In this document: piece by piece, positions 20,596-64,000 of the stretch
How the letters are laid out: every line of letters begins with the position of its first letter
How positions within the stretch are numbered: position 1 is the stretch's first letter
NCBI RefSeq assembly: GCF_001418015.1
Contig: NZ_LIQG01000020.1
Coordinates: 1-64,000 of the forward strand
Direction: 5' to 3'
DNA length: 64,000 nucleotides
Source of the DNA: Lacinutrix mariniflava
Lineage (GTDB): Bacteria; Bacteroidota; Bacteroidia; Flavobacteriales; Flavobacteriaceae
Program-made: the position numbers and the translations under genes
The notes under the pieces: model-generated
Databases searched by the model: none
Seen by the model: the letters and a program-made list of their open reading frames with translations, nothing else
What the model was told of the DNA's origin: nothing

Positions 20596-21432
20596 TTAAA
20601 GAAAGTCTAAAGGACTAGGTACATTTTCTAAAGTTTTATTAGTTACATGTGTATAAACAAGTGTCGTTTTAATAGAACTATGTCCTAATAATTCTTTTAT
20701 TATTCTTACATCTGTACCTCTATCCATTAAATGTGTTGCGTAAGCATGCCTAAGGCCATGAAGTGTAATATTCTTATTAACTCTAGATTTAGCTAAAGCC
20801 TGTTTAAAAACTTTTCTTAAACTTTCTGATGAATATTGGTTTCCTTTTTGACCGCAAAATAAATAGGTTTTAGGTTTGTATTCTAAATAATAAGTTCTTA
20901 AAATTACTTTTAACGATTCTGGAAACGGTATTACTCTATCCTTATTTCCTTTGCCAGAACGAATATGTATTTGGTTTCTATCTCCATCAATATCATTAAT
21001 TCTCATATTAATAAGCTCTCCACTTCTTAAACCTAAAGCATAAATAACTGTAAGCATTGTTTTATGCTTTAAATTACTGTGGCTATCTAAAATAGCTTTT
21101 ACATCTTTAGTTGAAATAATTTTGGGTAATGGTTTTGGACGTATGGTTGGATAAACAGGTAAAAAATCTATATCTCTACCATACATTTCTTTATAAAATA
21201 GTTTTAGTGCAGCACAAAGTTGTTTATGTGTTGTATAAGCCAATTGTTTTTCTTTAACTGCTTCTATAATAAATGCAAGTAAATCCTTATTTTCAAGATC
21301 TGCCATATCTACATGAAAACCAATATACTTGTGAAACGATTTTAAAAGTCCTAGATAAGTAATAATACTATTTGAACTGTATCGTTTTATTTCAAGTAAT
21401 TTTTGAAAATTTGAAAAAGTTGTGATATCCAT
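20596..21432 (-). CDS. Integron-type tyrosine recombinase (IntI/XerC-like)
   Basis: 278 aa from the ATG at 21432 (the frame extends to 21453). The N-terminal SAM-like domain spans about 1-95. Catalytic residues: Arg in A-L-G-L-R-S-G-E-L, Lys in G-K-G-N-K-D-R, H-G-L-R-H-A-Y-A-T-H-L, G-H-S-S-I-K-T-T and Tyr in L-V-Y-T-H-V. The C-terminus S-P-L-D-F-L resembles IntI (R-S-P-L-D). It lies divergent from, and 100 bp away from, the first cassette, as intI does. However, IntI proteins are usually 310-340 aa with an extra helix between the Lys and His motifs, and I cannot see that insertion here. It is the obvious candidate for moving the cassettes, but a Xer-derived convergent enzyme is possible. Confidence 0.75.
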   Translation of the reverse strand: MDITTFSNFQKLLEIKRYSSNSIITYLGLLKSFHKYIGFHVDMADLENKDLLAFIIEAVKEKQLAYTTHKQLCAALKLFYKEMYGRDIDFLPVYPTIRPKPLPKIISTKDVKAILDSHSNLKHKTMLTVIYALGLRSGELINMRINDIDGDRNQIHIRSGKGNKDRVIPFPESLKVILRTYYLEYKPKTYLFCGQKGNQYSSESLRKVFKQALAKSRVNKNITLHGLRHAYATHLMDRGTDVRIIKELLGHSSIKTTLVYTHVTNKTLENVPSPLDFL

Positions 21433-21453
21433 CTGAAAAACAAATATATACAA

Positions 21454-21534
21454 ATTAATATAAAAGTTGGGTTATTCTACCATATAAGCATGTAATACCT
21501 TAAAAATTGATTAGATTTGGTATATATAAACGTT
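21454..21534 (+). other. Putative attI primary recombination site
   Basis: This segment joins the recombinase gene to the first cassette. It ends TATATATAAACGTT, closely matching the right arms of the attC sites (TATACATAAACGTT, ATATACAAACACGTT), and the GTT at 21532-21534 opens cassette C1. There is no matching left arm, as expected of attI. Exact limits are uncertain. Confidence 0.5.
21512..21519 (+). promoter_or_regulatory. Possible cassette promoter Pc (-7 box)
   Basis: TAGATTTG matches the Bacteroidota -7 consensus TAnnTTTG and would start transcription just before the insertion point at 21532, reading into the array. No good TTTG -33 box is present at the usual 19-base spacing, so this rests on one half-site. 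Confidence 0.3.
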
Positions 21535-21884
21535 ATCTATAAGTTACTCACCAACAAAAATTATTGGAAAATCTATAAGTCTGAACTTCCAACAAGGGAA
21601 TAATTACTCAAATGAATAATGTAATCTGAAAAACGTTACGGATTGGATTCTGTTTGATTTTATAAACCAAGATAATTTTAGATTAAAAAGATCAATAAAG
21701 TAAACCAAGATTGAAAAGCTTGCGTTTATCGTTACGACTGAATTACACGCAGAAAAACCAATCTGAGCTAATCTGGACAGTAGAAACGTATCATTGCGCT
21801 TAAACCGTTGCTAAAACCAGAATTCCTAAATTATATTTATATAAAAATTTAAACATCTGAACTCTGGCTAACTATGAAAAGACC
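21532..21884. other. Gene-less cassette body C1
   Basis: About 350 bases with no convincing reading frame. It begins GTTATCTATA and its closing arm TATAGATAAC starts at 21885. A second, diverged copy is C14 (30506), which lacks 38 bases lying between short direct repeats (AAACCAAGA) and has several point differences. Its retention in two places suggests a non-coding RNA or simply a neutral passenger. Confidence 0.6.
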
Positions 21885-22014
21885 TATAGATAACAACGTA
21901 TATAATTAATGGCTAGTTTTAGCTTGCTTACGAAAATCTTTGCAGATTTTCTATTCCGTTTTTATTTACTAAATTAGGTGCTGAAACACGCCACTAATCA
22001 TATACAAACACGTT
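21885..22014 (+). repeat. attC site of cassette C1
   Basis: R'' TATAGATAAC pairs with the start of C1. The palindrome runs from GTATATAATTAATGGC to GCCACTAATCATATAC, with an inner hairpin AAAATCTTTGCAGATTTT, and ends at the GTT of C2. Confidence 0.75.
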
Positions 22015-22061
22015 AGCAACAAGCACTCACTCGAATGGAAATAAACCCGAAAAAATAAAAT

Positions 22062-22892: not shown

Positions 22893-23021
22893 GTTGCTAA
22901 CACCGTATATAATTTATTGCTGGTTCTAGCCTGCTTACGAAAACCCTCGCGGATTTTCTATTCGGTTTTTATTTGCTAAATTTAGTGCTTAAACACGCAA
23001 CAAACCATATACAAACACGTT
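22893..23021 (+). repeat. attC site of cassette C2
   Basis: R'' GTTGCTAAC is the exact complement of the C2 start GTTAGCAAC. The arms GTATATAATTTATTGC and GCAACAAACCATATAC flank an apical hairpin, and GTT at 23019 opens C3. Confidence 0.78.
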
Positions 23022-23047
23022 AGCCACAAGTAAAAAAAAACTCACGA

Positions 23048-24808
23048 ATGAAATTTAAATTATCGGAATTTACTATTAAAAATTTTCGCTCTATTTCAAA
23101 TATTAAACTGACAATAAATGACGGAAATTTAATAACAATTTGTGGCTCAAATAATGTTGGTAAAACGAATTTTTTGAGAGCTTTAAATTTGTTCTTTAAT
23201 CCAAATATTGAAAATTTCAATGCCGAAGACGATATACCTTATCACATAGTAGAAGGCTCTAGAGGACAAGGTTATGCGATTTCATTAAAGGCAAAAATAA
23301 TTGAAACTGGAAGTAATATTATTTATTCAATAACTCAAAGTTTCACAGAAAAACAAGGAATAAAAGAAATAATAATAAAAGGAAAAAAAGGTGACATCGA
23401 ACTTACAGAAAAAGAGACTCGTGATTTCCTTAGTAAAAACTTCAAATTCTTTTTTGTCGAGGCTAGTAATGTTAATATCCCGAAATTAGTTTCCGAAATA
23501 GTTAATGATGAAATATTGCCATTAGGCCTAGATAAAAGAAGAGGGAAAAACCAAAAAGAATCGTTAGCAAAACTTGACGAGTTTATTGAACTTTCAAAAC
23601 AATCTGTTGGAAAAATAGAAAATGAATTAACTAAAATTTTCCAAAGCCTACTAAAAGAGGTAGATTCAATAGATTCCAATGATTGGAAACTTCAAATCCG
23701 CTTTCCAGAATATCTATTTTTAAGAGACGCAATATCTAAAATTATTGAGTTTACTTTGTTTGACACAAATGAGCGAAAATTAGAAACTAAAGGAAGTGGA
23801 ATTCAAAGAACAATTTTATTATCTTTAATACAATACGTTAATTCAAGAACTAAAAGAGATATTATTTGGGCTATAGATGAACCTGAAGCATTTCTTCAAG
23901 CTGGTTTACAAAAAAGTTTATACTCTAAACTAATTTCAGAATCAAATTCAAGTCAAATAATAATTACAACTCATTCTCATTTCTTTATTGACGTTAACGA
24001 ACTAAATAACACATTTTTATTTGAAGGCACAAAAGAACTAAAAGAATATTCACGAAAAAAAGGTTTACTTTTTTACAAATTAAATACAGTGATTTTTAAA
24101 GGTTCCAATTTTGAACAAGCACAGAAAATAAAAGAAAATTTTGGAATAGGGAGAAATGACTCTTGGGAAGTTATGCCTTTTAACTTGCTTGTTGAAGGAC
24201 AAGAAGATAAAGATTTATTTATTGTATTAATGAAAAAATTTAATCTTCCAATACCTAATATTTTAGTTGGCGGTGGTGTTGACAAATATCCAGGGTTTTT
24301 ACAATTCTTAAATGATTTCTGTTCGGAACTAGAATATAAACCGAAAATAGTTGCAATTTTCGATAGAGATCCAGCTGGACGAAGTAAATTTAATTCTTTA
24401 AACAATAAAACTTATGCATCCTTGGAACTTAATTGTTCATATATAAATAGATTTGATGATGAGAAGTTTAATGATTTAGAACTTGAGGATTTTATTTATC
24501 CAGATTTATTTTTTGACTCAGTAAATAAGTTTTTAAGAAAGAAAAAATATTCCCAAATAAAAAAAGCCGACAGAAAAAAAAGAACACTTCCTGCTTATAA
24601 TAGAAAAGCAATTCTTGACTTCACAACTGAAATGTGCAGACAAAACAATGAAGATAAACACGAAATCGATTTTAATACATTAGGTATGAAATTATTTTTA
24701 TCTAAAACGATTTGTGATACAATTTCAAAAAAAGATATTTCAACATACGATAAAGAACATCCGAAAGTTAAACAATATTTGAAGGAAATAATAAATACCT
24801 GTGGCTAA
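23048..24808 (+). CDS. OLD-family endonuclease: ATPase plus TOPRIM (C3)
   Basis: 586 aa. The N-terminal ABC-type ATPase has Walker A G-S-N-N-V-G-K-T (33-40), a Q-loop region, and Walker B with I-I-W-A-I-D-E-P-E-A (about 275). The C-terminal TOPRIM nuclease has L-L-V-E-G-Q-E-D-K and V-A-I-F-D-R-D-P-A-G, the metal-binding Glu and D-x-D. This is the class 1 OLD layout known from phage P2 Old and from Gabija GajA. No UvrD-like GajB helicase lies beside it, so it is a solo OLD, probably anti-phage. The stop codon is formed inside the attC arm (T-G-T-G-G-C-TAA-C). Confidence 0.85.
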   Translation: MKFKLSEFTIKNFRSISNIKLTINDGNLITICGSNNVGKTNFLRALNLFFNPNIENFNAEDDIPYHIVEGSRGQGYAISLKAKIIETGSNIIYSITQSFTEKQGIKEIIIKGKKGDIELTEKETRDFLSKNFKFFFVEASNVNIPKLVSEIVNDEILPLGLDKRRGKNQKESLAKLDEFIELSKQSVGKIENELTKIFQSLLKEVDSIDSNDWKLQIRFPEYLFLRDAISKIIEFTLFDTNERKLETKGSGIQRTILLSLIQYVNSRTKRDIIWAIDEPEAFLQAGLQKSLYSKLISESNSSQIIITTHSHFFIDVNELNNTFLFEGTKELKEYSRKKGLLFYKLNTVIFKGSNFEQAQKIKENFGIGRNDSWEVMPFNLLVEGQEDKDLFIVLMKKFNLPIPNILVGGGVDKYPGFLQFLNDFCSELEYKPKIVAIFDRDPAGRSKFNSLNNKTYASLELNCSYINRFDDEKFNDLELEDFIYPDLFFDSVNKFLRKKKYSQIKKADRKKRTLPAYNRKAILDFTTEMCRQNNEDKHEIDFNTLGMKLFLSKTICDTISKKDISTYDKEHPKVKQYLKEIINTCG

Positions 24809-24932
24809 CACCGTATATAATTTATTGCTGGCTTATCGCCTACTTACGAAAGTCCTCGCGGACTTTCTTGGTTGGTAATTATTTACTAAATTAGTTGCTT
24901 GAAACACGCAACAAACCATATACAACAACGTT
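24800..24932 (+). repeat. attC site of cassette C3
   Basis: R'' TGTGGCTAAC complements the C3 start GTTAGCCACA. The inner hairpin is GAAAGTCCTCGCGGACTTTC. It ends at the GTT of the gene-less unit C4. The last two codons and the stop of the OLD gene lie in R''. Confidence 0.78.
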
Positions 24933-25113
24933 CTGGTTAATGCGCCGCTGCGCTCTGCATTAACCAGAACTCCTGGCGGCTACGCCTAACGTTCTTGTTG
25001 ATTGCTTCGCTTCGCTGCGCACTAAACAAGAACGTTAGGCTATAAGTCATTTTTTGAAATTTAAAAATACTTCGTATATTCAAATTTCAAAAAACAACTC
25101 ATAGCCGCCAGGA
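24930..25113. repeat. Gene-less 184-bp hairpin cassette, copy 1 (C4)
   Basis: Nearly all of this unit is base-paired. Hairpin 1 is GTTCTGGTTAATGC (24930-24943) with GCATTAACCAGAAC (24957-24970). An outer 15-bp stem AACTCCTGGCGGCTA (24968-24982) pairs with TAGCCGCCAGGAGTT (25102-25116) and encloses two more hairpins, GCCTAACGTTCTTGTT / AACAAGAACGTTAGGC and an AT-rich one with a TTCG turn. It begins and ends at GTT cores, so it behaves as a cassette made almost only of attC-like DNA. Copies of the same length are at 26512 and 45453. Confidence 0.8.
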
Positions 25114-25139
25114 GTTGTATGCAATTAAAACCAAACTTT

Positions 25140-25710: not shown

Positions 25711-25840
25711 TGCATACAACATCGTATAAAATTAAGTGCTAGTTTTTGCTTGTTTACGAAAATCCCTTCGGATTTTCTAGTTAGTATTTATTTACTAATT
25801 TAGTTGCTTAACCACGCACCTAACCTTATACAAAAACGTT
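25711..25840 (+). repeat. attC site of cassette C5
   Basis: R'' TGCATACAAC is the exact complement of the C5 start GTTGTATGCA. The apical hairpin is AAAATCCCTTCGGATTTT. GTT at 25838 opens C6. Confidence 0.77.
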
Positions 25841-26383: not shown

Positions 26384-26514
26384 TTTTGCTAACATCGTAT
26401 AAAAATAATTGCGGTTTAGCGCTTAATCAAAGGTCGTTGCGTGTTTGTAACGTCTGATTTTCCTTCGGAAAATCCTCGCATACAAACACGCAACTATTCT
26501 TATACATAAACGTT
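26384..26514 (+). repeat. attC site of cassette C6
   Basis: R'' TTTTGCTAAC complements GTTAGCAAAA. It belongs to the second attC subtype (GTATAAAAATAATTGCGG ... CGCAACTATTCTTATACA) with inner hairpin GATTTTCCTTCGGAAAATC. Confidence 0.77.
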
Positions 26515-26695
26515 CTGGTTAATGCGCCGCTGCGCTCTGCATTAACCAGAACTCCTGGCGGCTACGCCTAACGTTCTTGTTGATTGCTTCGCTTCGCTGC
26601 GCACTAAACAAGAACGTTAGGCTATAAGTCATTTTTTGAAATTTAAAAATACTTCGTATATTCAAATTTCAAAAAACAACTCATAGCCGCCAGGA
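26512..26695. repeat. Gene-less 184-bp hairpin cassette, copy 2 (C7)
   Basis: Same length and apparently same sequence as 24930-25113, again bounded by GTT cores and lying between attC of C6 and the start of C8. Confidence 0.8.
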
Positions 26696-26726
26696 GTTAG
26701 GCAACATTTGAGAAACCGCGAACTGA

Positions 26727-27156: not shown

Positions 27157-27287
27157 GTTGCCTAACACCGTATAAAAATAATTGCGGCTTAGTGATTAGT
27201 CAAAGGTCGTTGCGTGTTTGTAACGTCTGATTTTCCTTCGGAAAATCCTCGCAGACAAACCCGCAACTATCCTTATACATAAACGTT
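27157..27287 (+). repeat. attC site of cassette C8
   Basis: R'' GTTGCCTAAC is the exact 10-base complement of the start GTTAGGCAAC. Second subtype, with GATTTTCCTTCGGAAAATC hairpin. GTT at 27285 opens C9. Confidence 0.78.
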
Positions 27288-27765: not shown

Positions 27766-27895
27766 GTTTGGTAACACCGTATATAATTAATGGCTGGTTC
27801 TAGCTTGCTTACGAAAATCTTTGCAGATTTTCTATTCGGTTTTTATTTGCTAAATTAGGTGCTTAAACACGCCACTAATCATATACAAACACGTT
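27766..27895 (+). repeat. attC site of cassette C9
   Basis: R'' GTTTGGTAAC is the exact complement of the start GTTACCAAAC. First subtype, with inner hairpin AAAATCTTTGCAGATTTT. Same as the attC of C25. Confidence 0.78.
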
Positions 27896-28531: not shown

Positions 28532-28660
28532 TTTGCTAACACCGTATATAATTTATTGCTAGTTCTAGCCTGCTTACGAAAACCCTCGCGGATTTTCTAT
28601 TCGGTTTTTATTTGCTAAATTACGTACTTAACCACGCAACAAACCATATACAAACACGTT
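28532..28660 (+). repeat. attC site of cassette C10
   Basis: R'' TTTGCTAAC complements GTTAGCAAA. First subtype with TACGTACTTAACCACGCAAC right arm. GTT at 28658 opens C11. Confidence 0.78.
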
Positions 28661-28670
28661 GGCAACAATA

Positions 28671-29255
28671 ATGAAAAATCCGAACTTCGAAAATATAAAT
28701 CTGTTTGAATTTCTAAAATCGGAATTCAAAACACGTAAAAAAAGAAAAAGAATTTTCGGAACAATCTGCTCATTTTTTCAACTGTTCGTTTTTGGAACAT
28801 TTAATTATCAAACAAAAAAATCGTGGAATGAAATTCACAAATCGATAGAGAATAAACTATTGAATTTCTATCCTGAACTGAATTGTAAGTTCAATGGAAA
28901 AAGACCAACTTTTATCGAATTATTAAAAAATTACGGAACTGAACGAATTGAATTCAAATTTAATAAAGCGCACGTAGCTGTTACGAACGATTCTCTTTAC
29001 GTTTTCCCATTCGATTCGGCTGAATTGAAAGACCAAGGAGCTTATTATGATATGCTTGAGGAACCATTTCGGATAGTTTATAATACAACAGAGAAAAATG
29101 ATAAATATTCCGTAATAAGTACTATTTCTGAATTTATATCAATGAAATCTGAAAACGGAAAAACGAATATTGAATTTAAAACAACGGAATTGAATGCTAG
29201 AACGGAATTAATATTTGACCAAGAAATTACAGTTGCCAACACCGTATATAATTAA
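28671..29255 (+). CDS. Basic protein with hydrophobic segment (C11, copy A)
   Basis: 194 aa from ATG 28671 (a frame opening at 28659 includes the core site and is unlikely). After a basic stretch (K-T-R-K-K-R-K-R-I) comes a hydrophobic segment F-G-T-I-C-S-F-F-Q-L-F-V-F-G-T-F that may enter the membrane. The rest is soluble with A-Y-Y-D-M-L-E-E-P-F-R-I-V-Y. No family recognised. The coding sequence runs through R'' into the palindrome, so the last residues (V-A-N-T-V-Y-N) and the stop are attC-encoded. Same protein at 62011-62595. Confidence 0.6.
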   Translation: MKNPNFENINLFEFLKSEFKTRKKRKRIFGTICSFFQLFVFGTFNYQTKKSWNEIHKSIENKLLNFYPELNCKFNGKRPTFIELLKNYGTERIEFKFNKAHVAVTNDSLYVFPFDSAELKDQGAYYDMLEEPFRIVYNTTEKNDKYSVISTISEFISMKSENGKTNIEFKTTELNARTELIFDQEITVANTVYN

Positions 29256-29360
29256 TGGCTAGTTTTAGCTTGCTTACGAAAATCTTTGCAGATTTTCTAT
29301 TCAGTTTTTATTTGCTAAATTAGGTGCTGAAACACGCCACTAATCATATACAAACACGTT
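29232..29360 (+). repeat. attC site of cassette C11
   Basis: R'' GTTGCCAAC complements GTTGGCAAC. The site overlaps the last eight codons of the C11 gene. GTT at 29358 opens C12. Confidence 0.78.
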
Positions 29361-29379
29361 GTATGCAATTTGACAACCA

Positions 29380-29781
29380 ATGAACAAAGGATTAAAATAT
29401 GGACTTCTGATTTTCGGAATTGTAATAATTACAGTTGTCGGATTTATTGGATTTGGACTTTACTCAATGGAAATTGAAGACCATTATGGCGACCTAAAAG
29501 AATTATATTATGATTCAAAAAGTGGAGATATAATACTGAATAAATCTACTTCTGAATTTGGAATAATCGAAAAAAACTGGAAACGTTTAAATATCCGAAC
29601 TCATAAAAAAGATTCTACGGATTTATATAATTGGGTTTATCAAAACGGAATTGAAACCAAGGCGGAAATTTACAGACCGATAATTGAAACGGAAAACATA
29701 AATAGTTTGAATTATTCAGAGGTTGTTGACAAAATAAATGCTTCTGAAATGACTTTTATAAATGGAAATAAAAAAGAATAA
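29380..29781 (+). CDS. Small single-TM protein (C12)
   Basis: 133 aa. An N-terminal hydrophobic helix (L-L-I-F-G-I-V-I-I-T-V-V-G-F-I-G-F-G) is followed by an acidic domain with Y-Y-D-S-K-S-G-D-I-I-L and D-L-Y-N-W-V-Y-Q-N-G-I-E-T. The architecture is as in C8 and C9, but the sequence is not obviously homologous. Unknown function. Confidence 0.6.
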   Translation: MNKGLKYGLLIFGIVIITVVGFIGFGLYSMEIEDHYGDLKELYYDSKSGDIILNKSTSEFGIIEKNWKRLNIRTHKKDSTDLYNWVYQNGIETKAEIYRPIIETENINSLNYSEVVDKINASEMTFINGNKKE

Positions 29782-29785
29782 AAAC

Positions 29786-29916
29786 TGCATACAACACCGT
29801 ATAAAAATAATTGCGGCTTAGTGCTTAATCAAAGGTCGTTGCGTGTTTGTAACGTCTGATTTTCCTTCGGAAAATCCTCGCATACAAACCCGCAACTATT
29901 CTTATACATAAACGTT
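29786..29916 (+). repeat. attC site of cassette C12
   Basis: R'' TGCATACAAC complements GTTGTATGCA. Second subtype, with GATTTTCCTTCGGAAAATC hairpin. Confidence 0.77.
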
Positions 29917-30377: not shown

Positions 30378-30508
30378 TGTGTACAACACCGTATAAAAAT
30401 AATTGCGGTTTAGTGCTTAATCAAAGGTCGTTGCGTGTTTGTAACGTCTGATTTTCCTTCGGAAAATCCTCGCATACAAACCCGCAACTAGTCTTATACA
30501 TAAACGTT
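30378..30508 (+). repeat. attC site of cassette C13
   Basis: R'' TGTGTACAAC complements GTTGTACACA exactly. Second subtype. GTT at 30506 opens C14. Confidence 0.77.
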
Positions 30509-30819: not shown

Positions 30820-30949
30820 TATAGATAACAACGTATATAATTAATGGCTAGTTTTAGCTTGCTTACGAAAATCTTTGCAGATTTTCTATTCCGTTTTTAT
30901 TTACTAAATTAGGTGCTGAAACACGCCACTAATCATATACAAACACGTT
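30820..30949 (+). repeat. attC site of cassette C14
   Basis: R'' TATAGATAAC complements GTTATCTATA. The palindrome appears the same as that of C1. GTT at 30947 opens C15. Confidence 0.75.
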
Positions 30950-51201: not shown

Positions 51202-51241
51202 GTATTCCAAGATCAATTCCTAATAAATATTCTGTTTTTTT

Positions 51242-52428: not shown

Positions 52429-52464
52429 AAACACGTTACCACACATTAAACCCCAAACTCAAAA

Positions 52465-53293: not shown

Positions 53294-53423
53294 GTGTGGT
53301 AACACCGTATATAATTTATTGCTGGTTCTAGCCTGCTTACGAAAACCCTCGCGGATTTTCTATTCGGTTTTTATTTGCTAAATTACGTACTTAACCACGC
53401 AACAAACCATATACAAACACGTT
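53294..53423 (+). repeat. attC site of cassette C35
   Basis: R'' GTGTGGTAAC complements GTTACCACAC exactly. First-subtype palindrome. GTT at 53421 opens C36. Confidence 0.78.
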
Positions 53424-54059: not shown

Positions 54060-54188
54060 TTTGCTAACACCGTATATAATTTATTGCTAGTTCTAGCCTG
54101 CTTACGAAAACCCTCGCGGATTTTCTATTCGGTTTTTATTTGCTAAATTACGTACTTAACCACGCAACAAACCATATACAAACACGTT
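54060..54188 (+). repeat. attC site of cassette C36
   Basis: R'' TTTGCTAAC. Same palindrome as the attC of C10. GTT at 54186 opens C37. Confidence 0.78.
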
Positions 54189-54910: not shown

Positions 54911-55042
54911 TGTGCCTAACACCGTATAAAAATAATTGCGGTTTAGTGCTTAATCAAAAGGTCGTTGCGTGTTTGTAACGTCTGATTTTCCTTCGGAAAA
55001 TCCTCGCATACAAACCCGCAACTATTCTTATACATAAACGTT
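54911..55042 (+). repeat. attC site of cassette C37
   Basis: R'' TGTGCCTAAC is the exact complement of GTTAGGCACA. Second subtype. GTT at 55040 opens C38. Confidence 0.78.
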
Positions 55043-55280: not shown

Positions 55281-55411
55281 TTTGCTAACAACGTATATAA
55301 AAAATTGCTAGATTAGTGCTTAATTAAAGGCTGTTGCTCTTTTGTTACTTCTGATTTTCCTTCGGAAAATCCGCCTGTACCAAAACGCAACTTTCCATAT
55401 ACAAACACGTT
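55281..55411 (+). repeat. attC site of cassette C38, intact reference for the IS110 target
   Basis: R'' TTTGCTAAC; right arm CCATATACAAACACGTT. Comparison with 34048-34169/35397-35405 defines the empty IS110 target as CATATAC|AAACACGTT. Confidence 0.8.
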
Positions 55412-55427
55412 AGCCACAAGCTGAAAA

Positions 55428-55503
55428 GCCAACGCGCAGTCAAGCACATTTCATTTTTTTCGTGCCTCAAAAAATAAAAAGAGCTTGCCTTTTCCCACCA
55501 ACT
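55428..55503 (+). repeat. Direct repeat, left copy, flanking the C39 operon
   Basis: GCCAACGCGCAGTCAAGCAC... to ...CCCACCAAC. A diverged copy lies at 60801-60870, so the four-gene operon is bracketed inside its cassette. Confidence 0.6.
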
Positions 55504-55514
55504 ACATCCTAATA

Positions 55515-55544
55515 TTGATTATCCATTAAAAGTTGATATATTTG
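55515..55544 (+). promoter_or_regulatory. Promoter of the C39 operon
   Basis: TTG (55515-55517), 19 bases, then TATATTTG (55537-55544): a good match to the Bacteroidota TTTG-N19-TAnnTTTG promoter. Confidence 0.6.
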
Positions 55545-55545
55545 C

Positions 55546-55558
55546 ATTAGATGCTAAT
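55546..55558 (+). promoter_or_regulatory. Operator-like palindrome at the C39 start site
   Basis: ATTAG-ATG-CTAAT directly follows the -7 box, where a repressor would block transcription. The XRE protein encoded next is the likely ligand. Confidence 0.5.
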
Positions 55559-55562
55559 AATT

Positions 55563-55778
55563 ATGAATAAAAAAGCAATTAACAGACTAAAAGTTGTTTT
55601 AGCTGAACACGGAAAAACCAACAAATGGCTAGCCGAAAAACTGAATAAAAACGGAACAACTGTATCTAGGTGGTGTACTAATGAGGTACAACCTTCTTTA
55701 GATACACTTTTAGAAATTGCCAATTTGTTTGGTATTGATATGAAGGAATTAATCAATTCAACGCTAGACGAAAAATGA
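55563..55778 (+). CDS. XRE-family HTH regulator (C39)
   Basis: 71 aa from ATG 55563 (the frame opens at 55551, inside the palindrome). A compact helix-turn-helix: L-A-E-K-L-N-K-N-G-T-T-V-S-R-W-C-T-N-E-V-Q-P-S-L-D-T-L-L-E-I-A. Such small regulators act as controller (C) proteins of restriction-modification loci. Here it probably binds the palindrome at 55546-55558 and times expression of the operon. It overlaps the next gene by 4 bases (ATGA). Confidence 0.85.
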   Translation: MNKKAINRLKVVLAEHGKTNKWLAEKLNKNGTTVSRWCTNEVQPSLDTLLEIANLFGIDMKELINSTLDEK

Positions 55779-58627
55779 AATTAGAAATACAAATAGATAA
55801 AAACAAGAATAAAATATTTGCTCCTTTGCTAGATAAATGGATTAAGTATTCAGCAGAAGAAGAATTGAAGCAAAAGTTTATTTGTAGGCTTAAAAACACC
55901 TATGGATACTCGCTAAACCAACTAGGTCAAGATGTTAAAATAAAAAAAAGGTATGAAGCTGACATTGCAATATGGAGAAGCGAATTAGATAAGAAAAATA
56001 ATTATATTCCTTCTATAGTTATCGCAGTTGAATGTAAAGCTGAGCATATAAAGATTAAGGAGTCTGACTATTCAATCGGTTACAATTTTGCCTCGTCCAT
56101 TAATGCTAACTTCTTCATTGCGGTAAACTTAAAAGAAACTAAAGTTTTTCATATTAAAAGTGAAGTCGCTGCAAAAAAAGTTGAAAAACTAACTGAAATA
56201 CCCAAAGCAGAAATACTTGTTGACAATAACAGTATAATCAAATATGTCAATGAAAATAAAAAATTTACTAGAGATGAATTTTCGAGATTATTAACTAGAA
56301 GCCATAACATAATTAGGAATAATGACAAATTATCTCCTGAAGCTGCTTTTGATGAAATTAGTAAAATTTTGTTTATGAAAATTATGTATGAACGAAGTTC
56401 TACAAGAGAAATGATTTTTTCAAGAGACAAGTTTAAAGCAGATGAAATTAATTATGAAGAAATTATTCGACCTAGTTTAAAAAAGGATGCTCCACACTTG
56501 GACCTAGATTATATGCAATATCTTTTTAATGAAACTAAAAAGGCATTTGCCACAGATGACCTTTTTGAACTTAAAGATATAATCAAAATAAAGCGAAATA
56601 GTTTTGAAATGATAGTCGAAGAACTTGAAGTCTTTAATCTTTCAGATACTTCAGATGACGTAAAAGGAATTGCTTTTGAACAGTTTCTAGGTAAAACTTT
56701 TAGAGGTGAATTAGGTCAATTCTTTACTCCAAGAACAATTGTAGATTTTATGATTGAAATACTTGACCCTCAAGAAGGGGAAGTTGTTTGTGATCCTTGT
56801 TGTGGTAGTGGAGGATTCTTAATTAGTGCTTTTGAATTTATGAGAGATAAAATTGATATCGAAATAAATGATGAAATCAAATCATTAAAACAAAAGTATT
56901 TTAATGACAATTTTGATAAATTATCATTGAAAGAACAAGAGGTAATTTCCAAATCGGTACAAGAAAAAATTGAAGAAATCAATCAAGAATTCGACATAAA
57001 TAATGAAAAAAGCAGGTATCACAAGCTTTCTCATTATAGTATTTATGGAACTGATGCCAATGCAAGAATGGCAAGAACTGCCAAAATGAATATGATTATG
57101 CACGGAGATGGACACGGTGGAGTTCATCATAATGATGGCTTGCTAAATGTAAACGGGATTTTTGATGGTCGCTTTGACGTCATTCTTACTAATCCACCAT
57201 TTGGCTCTAGAGTAGAAAAATCTCTTAAAGTAACAGAAGTAGATTTACCCTCAAATACAAAGCTAGAAAAATACAAAGCTAAATATCCAAATTATATAGA
57301 GAAAGTTATTGAACCATTAAGAGAATGGACTAACTACATCGATAAAAAAGATAAAAGTAAAGGGAAACCAATTCTTGATTTATTTGAAGTTGGAAAATGG
57401 AGTACATCAACAGAAGTACTTTTCATTGAAAGATCTTTAAATTTATTAAAACCTGGAGGAAGAATGGGAATCGTTTTACCAGAAGGTATTTTAAATAGTG
57501 CCAACTTAGAAAATACGAGAAATTATTACGAAGGAAAAGCTAAAATATTATTTTTAGTTTCTTTACCTCAAGATGTTTTTGTGAGTAGTGGAGCTGCAGT
57601 AAAAACAAGTTTGGTCTTTTTGAGAAAGTTTTCCGTAAAGGAGACTGAAAACTATAATAAAATATGTGAGTTTACAGAAAATAGAGTCAATAATAAATAT
57701 AAAAAGGAAATTGAATTATTAAATAAAAAATTAAAGCTAGATAAATTATTGTCCGCAGCTGATAAAAAAAGTATCAGAGAAGAACTAAAATCTATTAAAT
57801 TAAGGATACAACTTGAAGTAAAAAGTCTTGTTCAAAAAGAATTCGATTATGAAATTCCAATTTCAGACATACAAAAAGCTGGAATTACAACAACGGGAGC
57901 TAAAGGAGACAATCAACTTCCTGAATTAATTGAAAAGTACCTTGCAAACTCTAGAAAAGAAAAAATTACTAAATCAATTCAAGATTCGTCTTTCCAACTT
58001 TTTAGATATAAAAACCTTGCAAATTGGAGTGTTTCTCATTTACTTTCAAATACATTTGACTATAATGAGGATTTTAATCTAGTAAGAATTGGAGACTTTT
58101 TAAGCAGAAATAAAACAAGAATTGAAATACAAGATAATGTTCTTTACAAAAGAGTTACTATTAGGCTTTATAATAAAGGTGTAAAACTTAGAAATACTGC
58201 TTATGGCAAAGACATCGGCACTAAAAAACAATATTTAATTTCTAAGGACCAATTCCTTATTTCAAAAATTGATGCTAGAAATGGAGCATTTGGAATAGCG
58301 ACAGAAGAAGTTGACAAAGCTATTATAACCGCAGATTTTATAGCATATAATATCGATACTACCAAAATCGACCCTTTATTCCTTGTACTTATAACAAGTA
58401 CTCAGCAATTTTTAGATTTTGCTCAAAGCTCAAGTTCTGGAACAACAGGAAGACAAAGGATCGATGAAAAAAAATTCCTAGATGTCAAAATACCATTACC
58501 AAAACTTAGCAGGCAAAAGGAAATTTTAGGAAAGTATAGAGAAATATTGAGACAAAAGGAAATCATTATAGCAAAGGAAAAAAATGCAAAAGAAGATTTT
58601 GAACAAGAAATATTTAAATCTATTTAA
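55775..58627 (+). CDS. Nuclease-methylase-specificity fusion, type IIG-like (C39)
   Basis: 950 aa in three parts. Residues about 1-130: HsdR_N-like PD-(D/E)XK nuclease, with Y-E-A-D-I-A-I and V-E-C-K. Residues about 170-640: N6-adenine methyltransferase of the HsdM type, with G-Q-F-F-T-P-R, D-P-C-C-G-S-G-G-F-L (SAM motif I) and T-N-P-P-F-G (catalytic motif IV). Residues about 750-950: one target-recognition domain ending in a coiled coil, as in HsdS. There is no helicase/translocase domain, so this is a single-chain restriction-modification enzyme, not type I. First enzyme of a four-gene operon. Confidence 0.82.
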   Translation: MKLEIQIDKNKNKIFAPLLDKWIKYSAEEELKQKFICRLKNTYGYSLNQLGQDVKIKKRYEADIAIWRSELDKKNNYIPSIVIAVECKAEHIKIKESDYSIGYNFASSINANFFIAVNLKETKVFHIKSEVAAKKVEKLTEIPKAEILVDNNSIIKYVNENKKFTRDEFSRLLTRSHNIIRNNDKLSPEAAFDEISKILFMKIMYERSSTREMIFSRDKFKADEINYEEIIRPSLKKDAPHLDLDYMQYLFNETKKAFATDDLFELKDIIKIKRNSFEMIVEELEVFNLSDTSDDVKGIAFEQFLGKTFRGELGQFFTPRTIVDFMIEILDPQEGEVVCDPCCGSGGFLISAFEFMRDKIDIEINDEIKSLKQKYFNDNFDKLSLKEQEVISKSVQEKIEEINQEFDINNEKSRYHKLSHYSIYGTDANARMARTAKMNMIMHGDGHGGVHHNDGLLNVNGIFDGRFDVILTNPPFGSRVEKSLKVTEVDLPSNTKLEKYKAKYPNYIEKVIEPLREWTNYIDKKDKSKGKPILDLFEVGKWSTSTEVLFIERSLNLLKPGGRMGIVLPEGILNSANLENTRNYYEGKAKILFLVSLPQDVFVSSGAAVKTSLVFLRKFSVKETENYNKICEFTENRVNNKYKKEIELLNKKLKLDKLLSAADKKSIREELKSIKLRIQLEVKSLVQKEFDYEIPISDIQKAGITTTGAKGDNQLPELIEKYLANSRKEKITKSIQDSSFQLFRYKNLANWSVSHLLSNTFDYNEDFNLVRIGDFLSRNKTRIEIQDNVLYKRVTIRLYNKGVKLRNTAYGKDIGTKKQYLISKDQFLISKIDARNGAFGIATEEVDKAIITADFIAYNIDTTKIDPLFLVLITSTQQFLDFAQSSSSGTTGRQRIDEKKFLDVKIPLPKLSRQKEILGKYREILRQKEIIIAKEKNAKEDFEQEIFKSI

Positions 58628-58629
58628 TT

Positions 58630-60144
58630 ATGCTACTTAAAAAATTACACATAGCTGACTATAAAATTTTAAAGGATTTCACTATTCAATTTCCTTATGA
58701 TTTTAAACAATACATTTCAGTTTTAATTGGAACAAATGGTTCTGGGAAATCAACCATATTAGAAGCAATTGCTCAAATTTTTAGTAGTGTTTTACTAAAT
58801 AAAAAAGCAGAATTCGGTTTTGAGTTAGAGTATTCAGTTCGTCACGAACAAATGATAGAAGAAACAAGTACAACTTCTGAATTTCAAAATACTTACTTAT
58901 CAGCAAAATTATCAGCAAATAAAAAAGGAGACACTATTCAAATTGAAACATTTGACAAGGATGGAAAAACTTTTAATAAGATTGATATTCTTGAAAAAGA
59001 TAAAATGGTTTTTGTGTCAGGTAAAACTGCTTATTCATATTTGCCAGATAATATTGTAATTTATTATTCCGGTTTGTCTGAAATTATGCAAGAATTAGTT
59101 GAGCCACACAATGAAATAATTTCAACTGCATATAGAAAAAACAACACTTTAGCCAATAGAGATTTCTTTTATTTCGAACCTGACCATTTCGGAATTATCT
59201 TAACAAGCTTACTTTCATTTGAATATGGAGATATTCCTGGGTTTCTACTTTCAAAAGCGAAAATTGAAGGAGTTCAAAGTATTCAGATAAGATTGCATAA
59301 GCCTGAATGGGCTAATGATTCTATTCAAAATTTTTGGGGAGCTAAAGGAGAAGTGAGAAATTTCCTTGACTATTTAAACGAAAACTCAGCTAGTGCAGAA
59401 GATTTGGTAAATTCAACTAACTCCAAAAGTGTTGGAAATATAGTTATTGAATCATTACAAGATGAATCAATTATCATCACAATCATCACACAAGAAAGAC
59501 TTTTTGAAATACGAAACCACTTAATAGAAGAACGAAAGCTTTTTGAGATTTTAAATATCCTATTAGCAGATGGTATGTTAAATGACATTACTTTTTCATT
59601 AATTAAAGTAGGTGAAGAACGTCAAAATTTTGGAACATTAAGTGAAGGCGAACAACAGATAATTATTATAAAAGGACTTACAGAATTACTTTCAGAAAAA
59701 AATTCACTTTTTCTTCTTGATGAACCTGATACATATTTACACCCTAAATGGCAGAGACAATTTATTACAGAAATTGAAAATACGACTAATCCTTCTACCA
59801 ATTCTGAAAACTCTTATGTAATTGCAACACATTCTCCTCAATTATTAAGTAATGCAAAATCTGAACTAAATTTTGTAAAAATCATTGAAGAAGGTGCTTT
59901 AATAGAGAATACACCAAAATATTACGGGCGAGAAATAAACACTATTCTGTATGAATTAATGGGCGTTGAAGAACGAAATAAATTGGTAAGAGGTAAAATA
60001 AGTGATTTGTATACGCTAATTGCAGAGGAAGATATTGAAGAAGCAGAAAGTTCTCTTAAAGATTTACAAGATCTAATAGGAAAAGATGACCCAGAGTTAA
60101 AAAGAGCTGAAATTCAAATTACTTATTTAAAAGAAGACGAATGA
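58630..60144 (+). CDS. AAA/ABC-type ATPase, PtuA-like (Septu) (C39)
   Basis: 504 aa. Walker A G-T-N-G-S-G-K-S-T at about residues 36-44, signature L-S-E-G-E-Q-Q, Walker B F-L-L-D-E-P-D-T-Y-L-H-P, and the H-loop A-T-H-S-P-Q-L-L. This is the SMC/RecF-like AAA_21 architecture. Followed, with a 4-base overlap, by an HNH nuclease gene. That pairing defines Septu (PtuA-PtuB) and the effector module of Ec78-type retrons; no reverse transcriptase is present. It starts 2 bases after the methylase stop codon. Confidence 0.82.
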   Translation: MLLKKLHIADYKILKDFTIQFPYDFKQYISVLIGTNGSGKSTILEAIAQIFSSVLLNKKAEFGFELEYSVRHEQMIEETSTTSEFQNTYLSAKLSANKKGDTIQIETFDKDGKTFNKIDILEKDKMVFVSGKTAYSYLPDNIVIYYSGLSEIMQELVEPHNEIISTAYRKNNTLANRDFFYFEPDHFGIILTSLLSFEYGDIPGFLLSKAKIEGVQSIQIRLHKPEWANDSIQNFWGAKGEVRNFLDYLNENSASAEDLVNSTNSKSVGNIVIESLQDESIIITIITQERLFEIRNHLIEERKLFEILNILLADGMLNDITFSLIKVGEERQNFGTLSEGEQQIIIIKGLTELLSEKNSLFLLDEPDTYLHPKWQRQFITEIENTTNPSTNSENSYVIATHSPQLLSNAKSELNFVKIIEEGALIENTPKYYGREINTILYELMGVEERNKLVRGKISDLYTLIAEEDIEEAESSLKDLQDLIGKDDPELKRAEIQITYLKEDE

Positions 60145-60797
60145 AAGCTATAAACAAAGGAAATGAACCTATTTCTTTAACAGAACATAGAGTTAAACAA
60201 TACGCTTCTTATGAAAATTTACCTAATGCTGACACAAGAGAATCTTTACTAGTAGAACAAGGTAATATTTGTTGTTATTGTATGAGAAGAATTCCCGAAT
60301 CTGAAAAAACACCAGGTTCTAAGATTGAGCATTTTTTATGTCAAGATAACCACCCTGATGAGGAATTAAGTTATGGAAATATGCTTTTAGCGTGTTTAGG
60401 GTATGAAGGTTCTTCAAAACGATTGCAAACTTGTGATTCAAAAAAAGGTAATCTTAGCCTAACATATTCTCCATCTAATCTAGCTAGAAATATTGAGGAT
60501 TTAGTAAAGTATAAACCTAATGGGGAAATTTACTCTTCTGATGAAACATTAAATACGGAATTAGAAACAGTATTGAATTTAAATGTAAAACAGTTAAAAG
60601 AAAACAGAAGAGTCGTTTATGAAAGTGTTCAAAATAGAATTAGAAACAAAGTAAAACAGCATAAAACAAATACATTACAGAAACGATTTTTAGAAGCTGA
60701 AAAAAGGAAATGGCTCAATTTGGTTAATGGAAAATATAAGGAGTTTTGTATGGTAGGAGTTTTTGTAATTAACAAGAAACTGAAAAGAATAGCTTAA
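60141..60797 (+). CDS. HNH nuclease, PtuB-like (Septu) (C39)
   Basis: 218 aa. The HNH region has C-C-Y-C-M-R-R at about residues 46-52, S-K-I-E-H-F with the catalytic His, Y-G-N-M-L-L-A-C, and C-D-S-K-K-G-N. This is the TIGR02646-type family of PtuB and retron-associated HNH proteins. With PtuA it would form a complex that cuts DNA or RNA after phage sensing. Translationally coupled to the ATPase gene (ATGA). Last gene of the operon. Confidence 0.82.
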   Translation: MKAINKGNEPISLTEHRVKQYASYENLPNADTRESLLVEQGNICCYCMRRIPESEKTPGSKIEHFLCQDNHPDEELSYGNMLLACLGYEGSSKRLQTCDSKKGNLSLTYSPSNLARNIEDLVKYKPNGEIYSSDETLNTELETVLNLNVKQLKENRRVVYESVQNRIRNKVKQHKTNTLQKRFLEAEKRKWLNLVNGKYKEFCMVGVFVINKKLKRIA

Positions 60798-60800
60798 ATA

Positions 60801-60870
60801 GCCAACGTAAGTTCAAGCACATTTAAAGTTTGCTCGTACCTCACAAATTTAAAAGAGCTTTCACACCAAC
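60801..60870 (+). repeat. Direct repeat, right copy, flanking the C39 operon
   Basis: GCCAACGTAAGTTCAAGCAC... to ...CACACCAACG. Diverged copy of 55428-55503. Confidence 0.6.
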
Positions 60871-60896
60871 GCTAGCAAGTTTTCGGAAAAAAGCCA

Positions 60897-61090
60897 GTGG
60901 CTAACAACGTGTATAAAACATAGCTATTATAGGCTTTTCAAGAGGTTTTTGATTATTTAATAAGTCCACCAAATTTTTATTTTTGTATATTTAGAATATA
61001 AAGATAAATAGAAAAAATAAAAATTTGGCTCGTGCTAAATCCGAAAAGTTAGCGTTTATTTATACGCTACGTTTCATACACAACAACGTT
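60897..61090 (+). repeat. attC site of cassette C39, long subtype
   Basis: R'' GTGGCTAAC complements GTTAGCCAC at 55409, 5.5 kb away, so the entire operon is a single cassette. The palindrome is about 190 bases, with CAAATTTTTATTT / AAAAATTTGG arms, like the attC of C15. Confidence 0.74.
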
Positions 61091-61867: not shown

Positions 61868-62000
61868 TTTAGCTAACACCGTATATAATTTATTGCTAGC
61901 TTCTCGCCTACTTACGAAAGTCCTCGCGGACTTTCTTGGTCGGTAATTATTTACTAAATTAGTTGCTTAAAACACGCAACAAACCATATACAACAACGTT
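61868..62000 (+). repeat. attC site of cassette C40
   Basis: R'' TTTAGCTAAC complements GTTAGCTAAA. Inner hairpin GAAAGTCCTCGCGGACTTTC. GTT at 61998 opens C41. Confidence 0.78.
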
Positions 62001-62010: not shown

Positions 62011-62595
62011 ATGAAAAATCCGAACTTCGAAAATATAAATCTGTTTGAATTTCTAAAATCGGAATTCAAAACACGTAAAAAAAGAAAAAGAATTTTCGGA
62101 ACAATCTGCTCATTTTTTCAACTGTTCGTTTTTGGAACATTTAATTATCAAACAAAAAAATCGTGGAATGAAATTCACAAATCGATAGAGAATAAACTAT
62201 TGAATTTCTATCCTGAACTGAATTGTAAGTTCAATGGAAAAAGACCAACTTTTATCGAATTATTAAAAAATTACGGAACTGAACGAATTGAATTCAAATT
62301 TAATAAAGCGCACGTAGCTGTTACGAACGATTCTCTTTACGTTTTCCCATTCGATTCGGCTGAATTGAAAGACCAAGGAGCTTATTATGATATGCTTGAG
62401 GAACCATTTCGGATAGTTTATAATACAACAGAGAAAAATGATAAATATTCCGTAATAAGTACTATTTCTGAATTTATATCAATGAAATCTGAAAACGGAA
62501 AAACGAATATTGAATTTAAAACAACGGAATTGAATGCTAGAACGGAATTAATATTTGACCAAGAAATTACAGTTGCCAACACCGTATATAATTAA
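62011..62595 (+). CDS. Basic protein with hydrophobic segment (C41, copy B of C11)
   Basis: 194 aa, identical to 28671-29255 and again ending in attC-encoded V-A-N-T-V-Y-N. The frame stays open upstream through the preceding attC to 61963, but the ATG at 62011 is the start shared by both copies. Cassettes C11 and C41 are both 700 bases, 33 kb apart. Confidence 0.6.
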   Translation: MKNPNFENINLFEFLKSEFKTRKKRKRIFGTICSFFQLFVFGTFNYQTKKSWNEIHKSIENKLLNFYPELNCKFNGKRPTFIELLKNYGTERIEFKFNKAHVAVTNDSLYVFPFDSAELKDQGAYYDMLEEPFRIVYNTTEKNDKYSVISTISEFISMKSENGKTNIEFKTTELNARTELIFDQEITVANTVYN

Positions 62596-62700
62596 TGGCT
62601 AGTTTTAGCTTGCTTACGAAAATCTTTGCAGATTTTCTATTCAGTTTTTATTTGCTAAATTAGGTGCTGAAACACGCCACTAATCATATACAAACACGTT
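62572..62700 (+). repeat. attC site of cassette C41
   Basis: R'' GTTGCCAAC. Same palindrome as the attC of C11. GTT at 62698 opens C42. Confidence 0.78.
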
Positions 62701-62727
62701 GTGTGCAATTAACCAAACCAATAAACA

Positions 62728-63570
62728 TTGAGGAAAAACCTACTATTTTTAGTACTATTAATAATAATTCAATCTTGTCAATCTGACCTTTTGACTGACA
62801 ATAAATCTATAATTCAGGAAATTGATAAATTGAATTTTAGTAAAACAACATTTGAAGTTTCCATAGATAATAACGAAAACATAATAGATACGCTTTCAAT
62901 TATAAAAACAAAAACGGATAAAAACGGTAAAATGCTTTATGTAATAAAAGAATATTTACCTAAAGTAGATGGAAGCATAATACAACAAAGCTATTTTAGG
63001 AATAATGAAGATTTGTTTTATAGAGAAACTGCTGCAACTGAAGAATTCAAATCAATCTTTCAAACCTTTGTTAATAAAGACAATATGATTGAAAACGCTC
63101 AAATGATAAGTTATACTTCTGAAAATCCCAATGATACAATCTTTATGAAATATGACTATAAATATAATAGCAAAGGAAAAAAAGAAACTTTATTTGTAAC
63201 ATTTGAAAAAGATTCTACGAATTCAATGGACTTTACAAAATACAATGAAAACGAAAAACCTGAATTTAGATATTTAATAATTGATAATGACACATTACAA
63301 AAACTAAAAATGAATTACCTTAATGGAAAAATGGTTGAATCAACATATGAATTCAAAGAACCTTTTAGAATCAAAATTTCCACTTATGATAATAACGAAA
63401 AAATAAAATCTGAAGTACAATATTTAAAAGTAAATGACACTATAAAAAAAGTATCGGAATCAACTTTTAATTATACTAAAAACACAGAATTAATAATTAC
63501 GAAAAGCATTTTGAAAGACACTATAACAAAAACGAAAAAAATAACTGCACACAACACCGTGTATAATTAA
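62728..63570 (+). CDS. Lipoprotein with YD-like beta repeats (C42)
   Basis: 280 aa from TTG 62728. Lipobox I-Q-S-C at residues 14-17. The mature part alternates short strands and turns (M-K-Y-D-Y-K-Y-N-S-K-G-K-K, F-T-K-Y-N-E-N-E-K-P, E-S-T-Y-E-F-K-E), as in small beta-solenoid or RHS-like lipoproteins. The frame runs through R'' into the palindrome and ends A-H-N-T-V-Y-N, the same attC-encoded tail as in C11/C41. Unknown function. Confidence 0.58.
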   Translation: MRKNLLFLVLLIIIQSCQSDLLTDNKSIIQEIDKLNFSKTTFEVSIDNNENIIDTLSIIKTKTDKNGKMLYVIKEYLPKVDGSIIQQSYFRNNEDLFYRETAATEEFKSIFQTFVNKDNMIENAQMISYTSENPNDTIFMKYDYKYNSKGKKETLFVTFEKDSTNSMDFTKYNENEKPEFRYLIIDNDTLQKLKMNYLNGKMVESTYEFKEPFRIKISTYDNNEKIKSEVQYLKVNDTIKKVSESTFNYTKNTELIITKSILKDTITKTKKITAHNTVYN

Positions 63571-63676
63571 TTGCTGGTTTTAGCCAATTTACGAAAGTCC
63601 TCGCGGACTTTCTATCTGTGATTTATTTACTAACTTTAGTGCTTAAAACACGCAACTAATCATACACAACAACGTT
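63546..63676 (+). repeat. attC site of cassette C42
   Basis: R'' TGCACACAAC is the exact complement of GTTGTGTGCA. Arms GTGTATAATTAATTGC / GCAACTAATCATACAC. GTT at 63674 opens C43. Confidence 0.77.
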
Positions 63677-63697
63677 GTAAAACATTTAGACCAACCA

Positions 63698-64000
63698 TTG
63701 AACATAGAAGTAGACGATAGAGAAATAGTTCCTTTAAACGAATTTGAATTAGGCTGGAGATTTGAAAAAACTCATAGTCCTAATATTTCTGAATCTGAAA
63801 AGAAACAAATTCAACCAGTTTCTGAAATGGAATCGAAAAGACTGAATAAGGTCATTGACTATTTCGAACAGGAATATAATTTAAGAGAAAAATTTACTCA
63901 AACGGATTGGATAAGTGCGAATGCAGAAAGTGATGAGAAAATTGAGCGGTTTAGAAACCAACTCGAATTGACTTTGGAAAAATGGGACGAAGAAATAATA
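63698..64000 (+). CDS. Partial gene of cassette C43, unknown
   Basis: Open frame from TTG 63698 to the window edge, at least 101 codons. No signal peptide. Charged and helical (L-G-W-R-F-E-K-T-H, R-L-N-K-V-I-D-Y-F-E-Q-E-Y, then F-R-N-Q-L-E-L-T-L-E-K-W). The cassette starts GTTGTAAAACATTTAGAC, nearly the same first 18 bases as C32. Family not recognised from this fragment. Confidence 0.5.
   Translation, partial: MNIEVDDREIVPLNEFELGWRFEKTHSPNISESEKKQIQPVSEMESKRLNKVIDYFEQEYNLREKFTQTDWISANAESDEKIERFRNQLELTLEKWDEEII

Follow-up and report, generated by a model that had tools for sequence, protein, structure and literature searches.

A probable integron-like cassette recombination system with a non-IntI tyrosine recombinase and dispersed docking sites in Lacinutrix mariniflava

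The cassette array described here lies in the flavobacterium Lacinutrix mariniflava, in a window of 64,000 nucleotides (nt) that comprises positions 1-64000 of the 415,672-bp contig NZ_LIQG01000020.1 (contig C20 of the own genome, G000, a draft of 3.97 Mb). Beside a tyrosine recombinase gene, 47 hairpin-forming sites that resemble the attC sites of integrons follow one another on one strand, each closing a unit that usually holds a short gene. We read this arrangement as what is probably an integron-like cassette recombination system, with a tyrosine recombinase other than IntI, which probably acts on single-stranded DNA, and with docking sites dispersed over the genome. The reading is carried by the array itself, the pairing of the arms of its sites, the strand asymmetry of these sites, junctions at G^TT or A^TT, duplicated and swapped cassettes, empty and filled docking sites (hereafter pads) and a recurrent linkage of recombinase and sites.

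The array occupies 21532-64000 (+ strand) of the window, 21532 being the start of the first cassette, and continues to contig position 72266, where the last site ends; its 47 attC-like sites, all on the + strand, cover about 21.9 to 72.3 kb of the contig, and 39 of them start inside the window. Each unit begins with GTT, usually contains a short open reading frame (ORF) and closes with about 120 nt running from AAC to the next GTT. The initial annotation had described such units, anchored by GTT and closed by an imperfect palindrome, next to a divergent tyrosine recombinase as an integron-like cassette array in a flavobacterium, with cores that depart from GTTRRRY. This description is borne out, only 2 of 47 cassette starts fitting the GTTRRRY core of integrons, and is to be extended by the non-IntI nature of the recombinase and by the dispersed docking sites. 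The 43 units counted earlier come near to the 42 that we find in the window, namely, 39 sites (three of them split by an insertion sequence [IS] of the IS110 family) and three 187-nt composite hairpins; the array end then set at 64000 has to be moved to C20:72266.

Counted from the recombinase and given from AAC through GTT, sites 1 to 12 lie at 21892-22014 (of which the bottom strand folds best), 22899-23021, 24807-24932, 25718-25840, 26391-26514, 27164-27287, 27773-27895, 28538-28660, 29238-29360, 29793-29916, 30385-30508, and 30827-30949. Site 13 is a long form of 192 nt (31793-31984), site 14 lies at 33684-33809, and site 15 (34054-35405) is split by an IS110 element at about 34170-35396, with its transposase at 34210-35202 on the - strand. 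Sites 16 to 19 (35958-36083, 36545-36670, 37300-37422, and 37884-38009) lead to a second split site, 20 (38638-39987; IS at about 38752-39978), which is followed by sites 21 to 25 (41321-41445, 41903-42026, 42512-42634, 43968-44092, and 45334-45455), the divergent site 26 (45886-46010), and sites 27 to 30 (47702-47824, 48251-48374, 49247-49372, and 50274-50397). Site 31 (51086-52437) is the third with an IS110 element, at about 51202-52428. Sites 32 to 35 are found at 53301-53423, 54066-54188, 54918-55042, and 55287-55411, a further long form, site 36, at 60903-61090, and sites 37 to 39 at 61875-62000, 62578-62700, and 63553-63676. As proposed by the initial annotation, a covariance model (R1) was built from 26 sites of the window; trained on the window only, it missed distant site types. 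In the own genome, R1 found 84 sites at E ≤ 0.01, 46 in the array and 38 elsewhere, and one long-form array site, absent from these 84, was found separately.

The two ends of a cassette match each other and not their neighbors. When the 8 nt after the GTT of each of the 47 array cassettes were compared with the 8 nt preceding the terminal AAC of the same cassette, read as reverse complement, a mean of 6.1 of 8 nt agreed, whereas 10,000 permutations gave a mean of 1.0 and a maximum of 1.9, and the match to the next cassette in the array had a mean of 1.3 nt. The score was at least 5 in 43 of 47 cassettes, with the complementary stretch extending over the first 8 to 10 nt. Three of the four low scorers start with the 187-nt composite hairpin, and the sequence just behind it does match, as judged by eye; in the fourth, one inserted base shifts the register. 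At 15 loci of other genomes, chosen among the loci with several site matches (the remainder being unscored), 121 of 137 cassettes scored at least 4, compared to a permuted mean of 7.9 and a maximum of 18. Each cassette therefore has its own terminal inverted repeat, which would become the outer stem of its site once the cassette is circular, as in integrons.

Inside the GTT/AAC pairs, an asymmetric unpaired spacer (3 versus 6 nt) precedes a stem of 16 pairs. In the resulting 19-pair structure, pairing was standard in 85.8% of cells (22 to 39% when slid), and eight stem pairs had changed on both sides; 0 of 500 shuffles attained the covariation score. Complementary R''/R' boxes, a foldable bottom strand and an asymmetric unpaired spacer are thus features shared with the sites of integrons. 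The bottom strand gave the more stable fold in 34 of 36 sites; among random segments this was the case for 44% in the array (300 segments) and 50% outside. In 26 of 26 sites, the top strand has A.C at two stem positions, which makes them G.T on the bottom strand. Over the distinct arms of the own array, mismatches that are A.C on top numbered 78, with 48 in the stem (6 of these from two out-of-register sites) and 30 in the cassette ends, versus none of the opposite kind in either part; in relatives the figures were 171 versus 4 (95 and 76 versus 3 and 1 in stem and cassette ends, respectively). Since the rows are related by descent, these events are not independent, but the direction nonetheless holds at several positions. 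With Watson-Crick and bottom-strand G.T pairs counted as paired, 38 of 43 unsplit sites paired at 16 of 16 stem positions without a bulge and so lack the extrahelical L-box bases of integrons; of the other five, three have one mismatch and two are out of register. As far as the predicted folds go, the strand bias of the sites comes from G.T wobbles and not from the extrahelical bases of known attC sites. The bottom strand is the substrate in canonical integrons too, where extrahelical bases select it, according to the pertinent part of PMC2727003.

Between the recombinase gene and the first GTT lies an attI-like region (21454-21534, + strand) that ends in ..GGTATATATAAAC^GTT. Five genomes of the genus have it in conserved form, while the sequence after the GTT differs in each; two more distant genomes share, weakly, only the end of the region, and the sequence after the GTT is unlike in all seven. 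By this comparison a site in the position of attI separates the gene from the first cassette, as in integrons. The region itself gave no fold, and a sigma-70 scan near it returned sites no more numerous than in shuffles. Seven cassette pairs recur in the array with different neighbors, five of them intact and 100% identical from GTT to GTT, one 100% identical up to an IS and one 97% identical. Furthermore, the array cassette at 29358-29916 (+ strand) has an identical copy (558/558 bp) in a dispersed pad of the own genome (G000:C32:150392-150949), where the identical stretch starts with the first T of GTT and the pad has A instead of G before it. Comparison thus indicates a crossover between G and TT and exact gain and loss of cassettes, both known of integrons. 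A fixed order of cassettes without exact GTT-to-GTT gains or losses had been named in the initial annotation as evidence against such a system; the seven duplicates with different neighbors, the unlike first cassettes and the empty and filled sites favor mobility.

The recombinase gene, divergent from the array, occupies 20596-21453 on the - strand and encodes 285 amino acids (aa) from a TTG start; the gene previously placed at 20596-21432 is this one, 21432 being its first ATG (278 aa). The protein has the Pfam domains Phage_integrase and a SAM-like N-terminal domain. Among the NCBIfam models it scored best with NF040815, "site-specific tyrosine recombinase/integron integrase" (206.7 bits), followed by the integron integrase model TIGR02249 (180.5 bits; cut-off, 265), XerD (175.5 bits) and XerC (169.6 bits); with a cut-off of 220, membership of XerA/NF040815 is not reached by curated score. 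The nearest solved relative by sequence is 4a8e ("probable tyrosine recombinase XerC-like"; E = 1.4e-37), which we take to be XerA of P. abyssi, and IntI4 (2a3v) ranks fourth. The spacing between the KGxxDR and HxLRH motifs was 58 to 59 aa in all 26 family members (24 counted by script and two, misread by the pattern, by eye) and 58 to 60 aa in 79 of 80 named relatives (one unscored), versus 100 aa in 29 of 29 canonical IntI proteins of the same phylum; in two Xer-like proteins of the own genome it was 64 and 66 aa. The recombinase and its kin lack about 42 residues of IntI, among them the IntI-domain motif, which was found in none of the 26 family members and none of the 80 named relatives but in 27 of 29 canonical IntI proteins. 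IntI rows formed one side of a branch with 100% support in both trees; the short recombinases formed one group in the first tree (90%) and were not one clade in the second (3 changes), and since only two to four outgroup rows were included, a sister relation to IntI is undecidable from these trees. The domain test is one that recognizes IntI, as reported in the portion of PMC9668308 concerned with it. Profile score, spacing, motif and trees all place the protein outside the IntI clade and without the IntI-specific (I2) domain; judged from its sequence by this defining domain, the recombinase beside the array is non-IntI. In genome G005, two recombinase genes of a longer lineage (about 380 aa; contigs C45 and C37, loci L181 and L182) each have an array of their own alongside. 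Plasmids of Flagellimonas and Arenibacter (H1 and H2) encode recombinases that are 47% identical and are annotated as "site-specific tyrosine recombinase/integron integrase"; these are a possible mobile form.

Outside the array, many dispersed cassettes are flanked by common sequence, ..TTGACTTTGTCAAAAAAATAGTCGAACTTCGTTTAACGTATGATATAAAACATTGAAACGATTTTATATCAACGAAACA^ on the left and ^TTAAACGAACC.. on the right, often with a terminator-like hairpin. Because TTCGTTTAA pairs with TTAAACGAA and TGATATAAAA with TTTTATATCA, an empty pad amounts to a 60-nt hairpin with the layout of an attC site. An 82-nt pad query had at least 29 full or partial matches in the own genome and matched 14 of 31 genomes, including all 13 searched genomes of the genus (2 to at least 29 each) and one other genus. 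Empty pads are present in the own genome and in genome G012, and comparison of empty and filled pads between these two places the insert exactly at A^TT. In the cleanest pair, the pad is empty in G012 (L158) and holds 3504 bp in the own genome (L081); this insert starts after the pad, ends in a site followed by G^TTAAACGAA and contains a second pad, and at the empty pad gene and repeat are absent together. A less clean pair (L162/L149) is empty in G012, where an additional gene (about 0.6 kb, not a cassette) precedes the pad, and has 808 bp in the own genome, starting with TT and ending with G; in a third pair (L163/L072) the core has diverged. One pad carries different cassettes in the two genomes (L165 and L148), and the G012 cassette resembles (79%) a cassette in another pad of the own genome (L151). 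A strict search with GTT and 4 further nt failed for many dispersed cassette starts, since the nucleotide in front of TT is part of the target; with TT only, a plausible start was found for 13 of 34 dispersed sites, 21 being set aside (16 without a candidate, 5 weak or far). Repeats occurring genome-wide, which, if unrelated to the recombinase, the initial annotation would have taken as refutation, are partly present, in that 38 of 84 matches lie outside the array, yet many of them are cassettes and a good part sit in dedicated sites. The proposal that dispersed repeats refute a cassette system was rejected after cassette ends and empty or filled pads had been found. Dispersed site matches on contigs C15, C27, C28, C30, and C32 of the own genome keep to one strand per contig (with one exception on C15), a bias possibly tied to replication direction. 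The 808-bp pad cassette (L149, on C27) encodes what, judged by eye, is a ParD/ParE-like toxin-antitoxin pair; toxin-antitoxin cassettes are of a kind known from sedentary integrons.

We then consider the linkage of recombinase and sites in other genomes. The recombinase was found at E ≤ 1e-60 in 20 of 99 genomes, the own included, and all 20 have sites. The R1 model found sites in 64 of the 99, that is, in 56 of 60 Flavobacteriaceae (again counting the own) and in 8 of 39 genomes of the rest of the order. At 19 fetched recombinase loci of relatives, 12 had site matches; the gene was divergent from the array as here in six, just upstream and codirectional in four and farther away (about 3 and 9 kb) in two. 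Of the seven siteless loci, five lie on a contig of 3 kb or where the contig breaks off on the side on which an array would be expected. A search with the family alignment gave 80 named loci from Flavobacteriia and other Bacteroidota groups. Site matches at E ≤ 0.1 were present at 29 of these, and 63 of 65 matches lay on the array side, pointing away from the gene. Contigs ended within 1.6 kb of the gene on its 3' side at 32 named loci and on its 5' side at 3, an excess such as repeats would cause. Recombinase and array thus recur together across Bacteroidota.

A mechanism that would accommodate these results is the following. A cassette would consist of a short gene and one attC-like site. 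Its ends (GTT plus 5 to 7 nt and the reverse complement) would meet in the circle, so that the site would be fully paired only when excised. The recombinase, whose role as the actor we infer, would act on the folded bottom strand, marked by G.T wobble pairs, two of them invariant, in place of extrahelical bases, and would exchange strands between G and TT, so that the cassette would enter either the attI-like site next to the recombinase gene or another attC-like site. In trans, the same enzyme would insert single cassettes into dispersed pads, each made up of a promoter-like stretch, a 60-nt hairpin laid out in the same way and, in many cases, a terminator-like hairpin downstream, from which a cassette might be expressed alone. 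The stretch upstream of the pad resembles the Bacteroidota promoter (-33 TTG, -7 TAnnTTTG).

Several results weigh against this reading. Sites are present in 44 of 79 relatives without a recombinase match at 1e-60; a second recombinase lineage, about 40% identical, accounts for some of these. Two of the 19 fetched loci (L051 and L058) are without a site although 17 to 19 kb are open there, and 51 of the 80 named loci have no site match; 30 of these 51 have no more than 1.6 kb of contig on the 3' side, and the other 21 have more. Inside the array, a site takes its R'' and its R' from two different cassettes, and beyond GTT the two mostly do not pair. The pad hairpin is as stable on one strand as on the other (-13.3 and -13.4), so that the strand mark is not seen at pads; many pads lack a site detectable with R1 (matches in 3 of 8 own stretches and 5 of 10 of G012), and the pad promoter is a resemblance only. 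Finally, a canonical IntI of another class adjoins a site that matches R1 with 65.6 bits (L166, G163:C116:36148-38246). The site type is therefore not exclusive but shared, and the canonical and non-IntI systems may share cassettes.

That the array is a true integron with a merely divergent IntI would fit the gene order of recombinase, attI-like region and array, the TIGR02249 score slightly above those of XerD and XerC, and a C-terminal ..SPLD.. that IntI has as well. We consider this improbable in view of the short motif spacing, the missing IntI-domain motif, the fully supported branch that sets the IntI rows apart in both trees and an integron-integrase score far under the curated cut-off. 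About equally improbable is that the sites are moved by the host XerC/XerD or by a transient canonical IntI, the adjoining recombinase being incidental. XerC/D-like proteins (30% identity) are indeed encoded in the own genome, and IntI, which can adjoin a similar site, matched in 107 of 394 sampled genomes of the phylum (over the cut-off in 105); however, 106 of these 107 belong to other classes and the remaining one to a different family of the class, and the recurrent linkage and orientation of recombinase and arrays would not be expected. We give still less credence to dispersed, self-copying hairpins like the repetitive extragenic palindromic (REP) elements, with genes between them by chance and duplicates made by homologous recombination. 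Hairpin repeats can spread without a cassette system, and the repeats here are genome-wide, but the two ends of each cassette pair and those of neighbors do not, duplicates run from GTT to GTT with different neighbors, and the cleanest empty pad lacks the gene as well as the repeat. Filing the system as an integron is nonetheless unwarranted, because two tested defining features, the IntI domain and the extrahelical bases, fail. The most economical view is that Bacteroidota have an integron-like system, parallel to integrons or ancestral to them, in which a central array is combined with dispersed expression sites. Whether it is, more specifically, a Bacteroidota-wide system of folded single strands without I2 and extrahelical bases, either an integron form that predates I2 and has survived or a second, independent invention, and has promoter-bearing pads filled in trans, we regard as an even bet.

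Among 30 cassette proteins scanned, 19 had no Pfam match at E ≤ 0.01 and 8 had a match over the curated cut-off, namely, an OLD/Gabija-like ATPase, DUF6932, a mycothiol-transferase-like protein, DUF4328, a type I restriction-modification (RM)-like methylase, a PtuA-like ATPase, DUF726, and an HxlR regulator. The ATPase gene (23048-24808) is in the cassette at 23019-24932 (+ strand), and a 5.7-kb cassette (55409-61090, + strand) holds a type I RM-like methylase/specificity protein and PtuA/PtuB-like (Septu) proteins. Thus, by similarity, at least two array cassettes look like carriers of phage-defense genes, and the system may therefore shuffle immunity. The 187-nt composite (24930-25116, + strand, limits set by eye, with copies at 26512-26698 and 45453-45639) consists of nested perfect hairpins exactly at cassette boundaries, with pieces also in loci L063 and L080; it looks like an ORF-less cassette or a miniature inverted-repeat transposable element using the same GTT boundary. 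The IS110-family element occupies the same position in each of four attC-like sites, three in the window and one at C20:66.7-67.9 kb, and its transposase passes the IS110 model NF033542 (166.3 versus a cut-off of 140). RNA matches in the window were a 6S-Flavo RNA (15307-15448, - strand) and a Flavo-1 RNA (5731-5809, + strand).

The system resembles the integrons that spread antibiotic resistance, as a gene-shuffling machine differently built, and probably represents a cassette pool of Flavobacteriaceae missed by tools that require the IntI domain. IntegronFinder 2.0 is reported, in the section of PMC9024848 that bears on the phylum, to have found a single complete integron among Bacteroidetes proper, that of Salinibacter ruber M1. 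Searches of the open-licence PubMed Central literature brought up no cassette array of Flavobacteriaceae whose recombinase is other than IntI. Escudero et al. 2016 (PMC4792948, in the passage on origins) called the joint origin of the I2 domain and the extrahelical bases of attC a chicken-egg paradox, with intermediary forms as a solution; a widespread system of cassettes and attC-like hairpins without either makes this question testable.

Like the sedentary chromosomal integrons of, e.g., Vibrio, the array has a recombinase gene beside an attI-like site, short and mostly unknown genes on one strand, one attC-like site per gene, complementary R''/R', an asymmetric unpaired spacer, a G^TT crossover and duplicated cassettes. 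Unlike in these integrons, the recombinase lacks the IntI-specific domain, the 16-bp L stem of most sites is free of extrahelical bases, the R box of about 8 to 10 bp is not GTTRRRY, and the array is accompanied by conserved dispersed pads. We know of no integron with genome-wide promoter-bearing docking pads filled in trans. The recombinase is closest to XerA in family score and solved structure; archaeal XerA acts at dif, whereas the gene here is tied to cassette arrays. Integration of CTXphi by XerCD likewise uses a folded single-stranded phage site without extrahelical bases and recombinases without I2, as outlined in part of PMC4792948, but involves no cassettes and no recombinase of its own. 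The IS110-type element shares with the IS1111-attC group, as characterized in the relevant section of PMC11187229, its fixed place in attC-like sites, its assignment here being to the IS110 family by the model for that family. Placement of single cassettes outside the array recalls attG insertion (Loot et al. 2024, as cited in PMC12901181); attG sites, in that summary, are divergent genomic sites, whereas the target here is one conserved promoter-like hairpin element throughout the genus sample.

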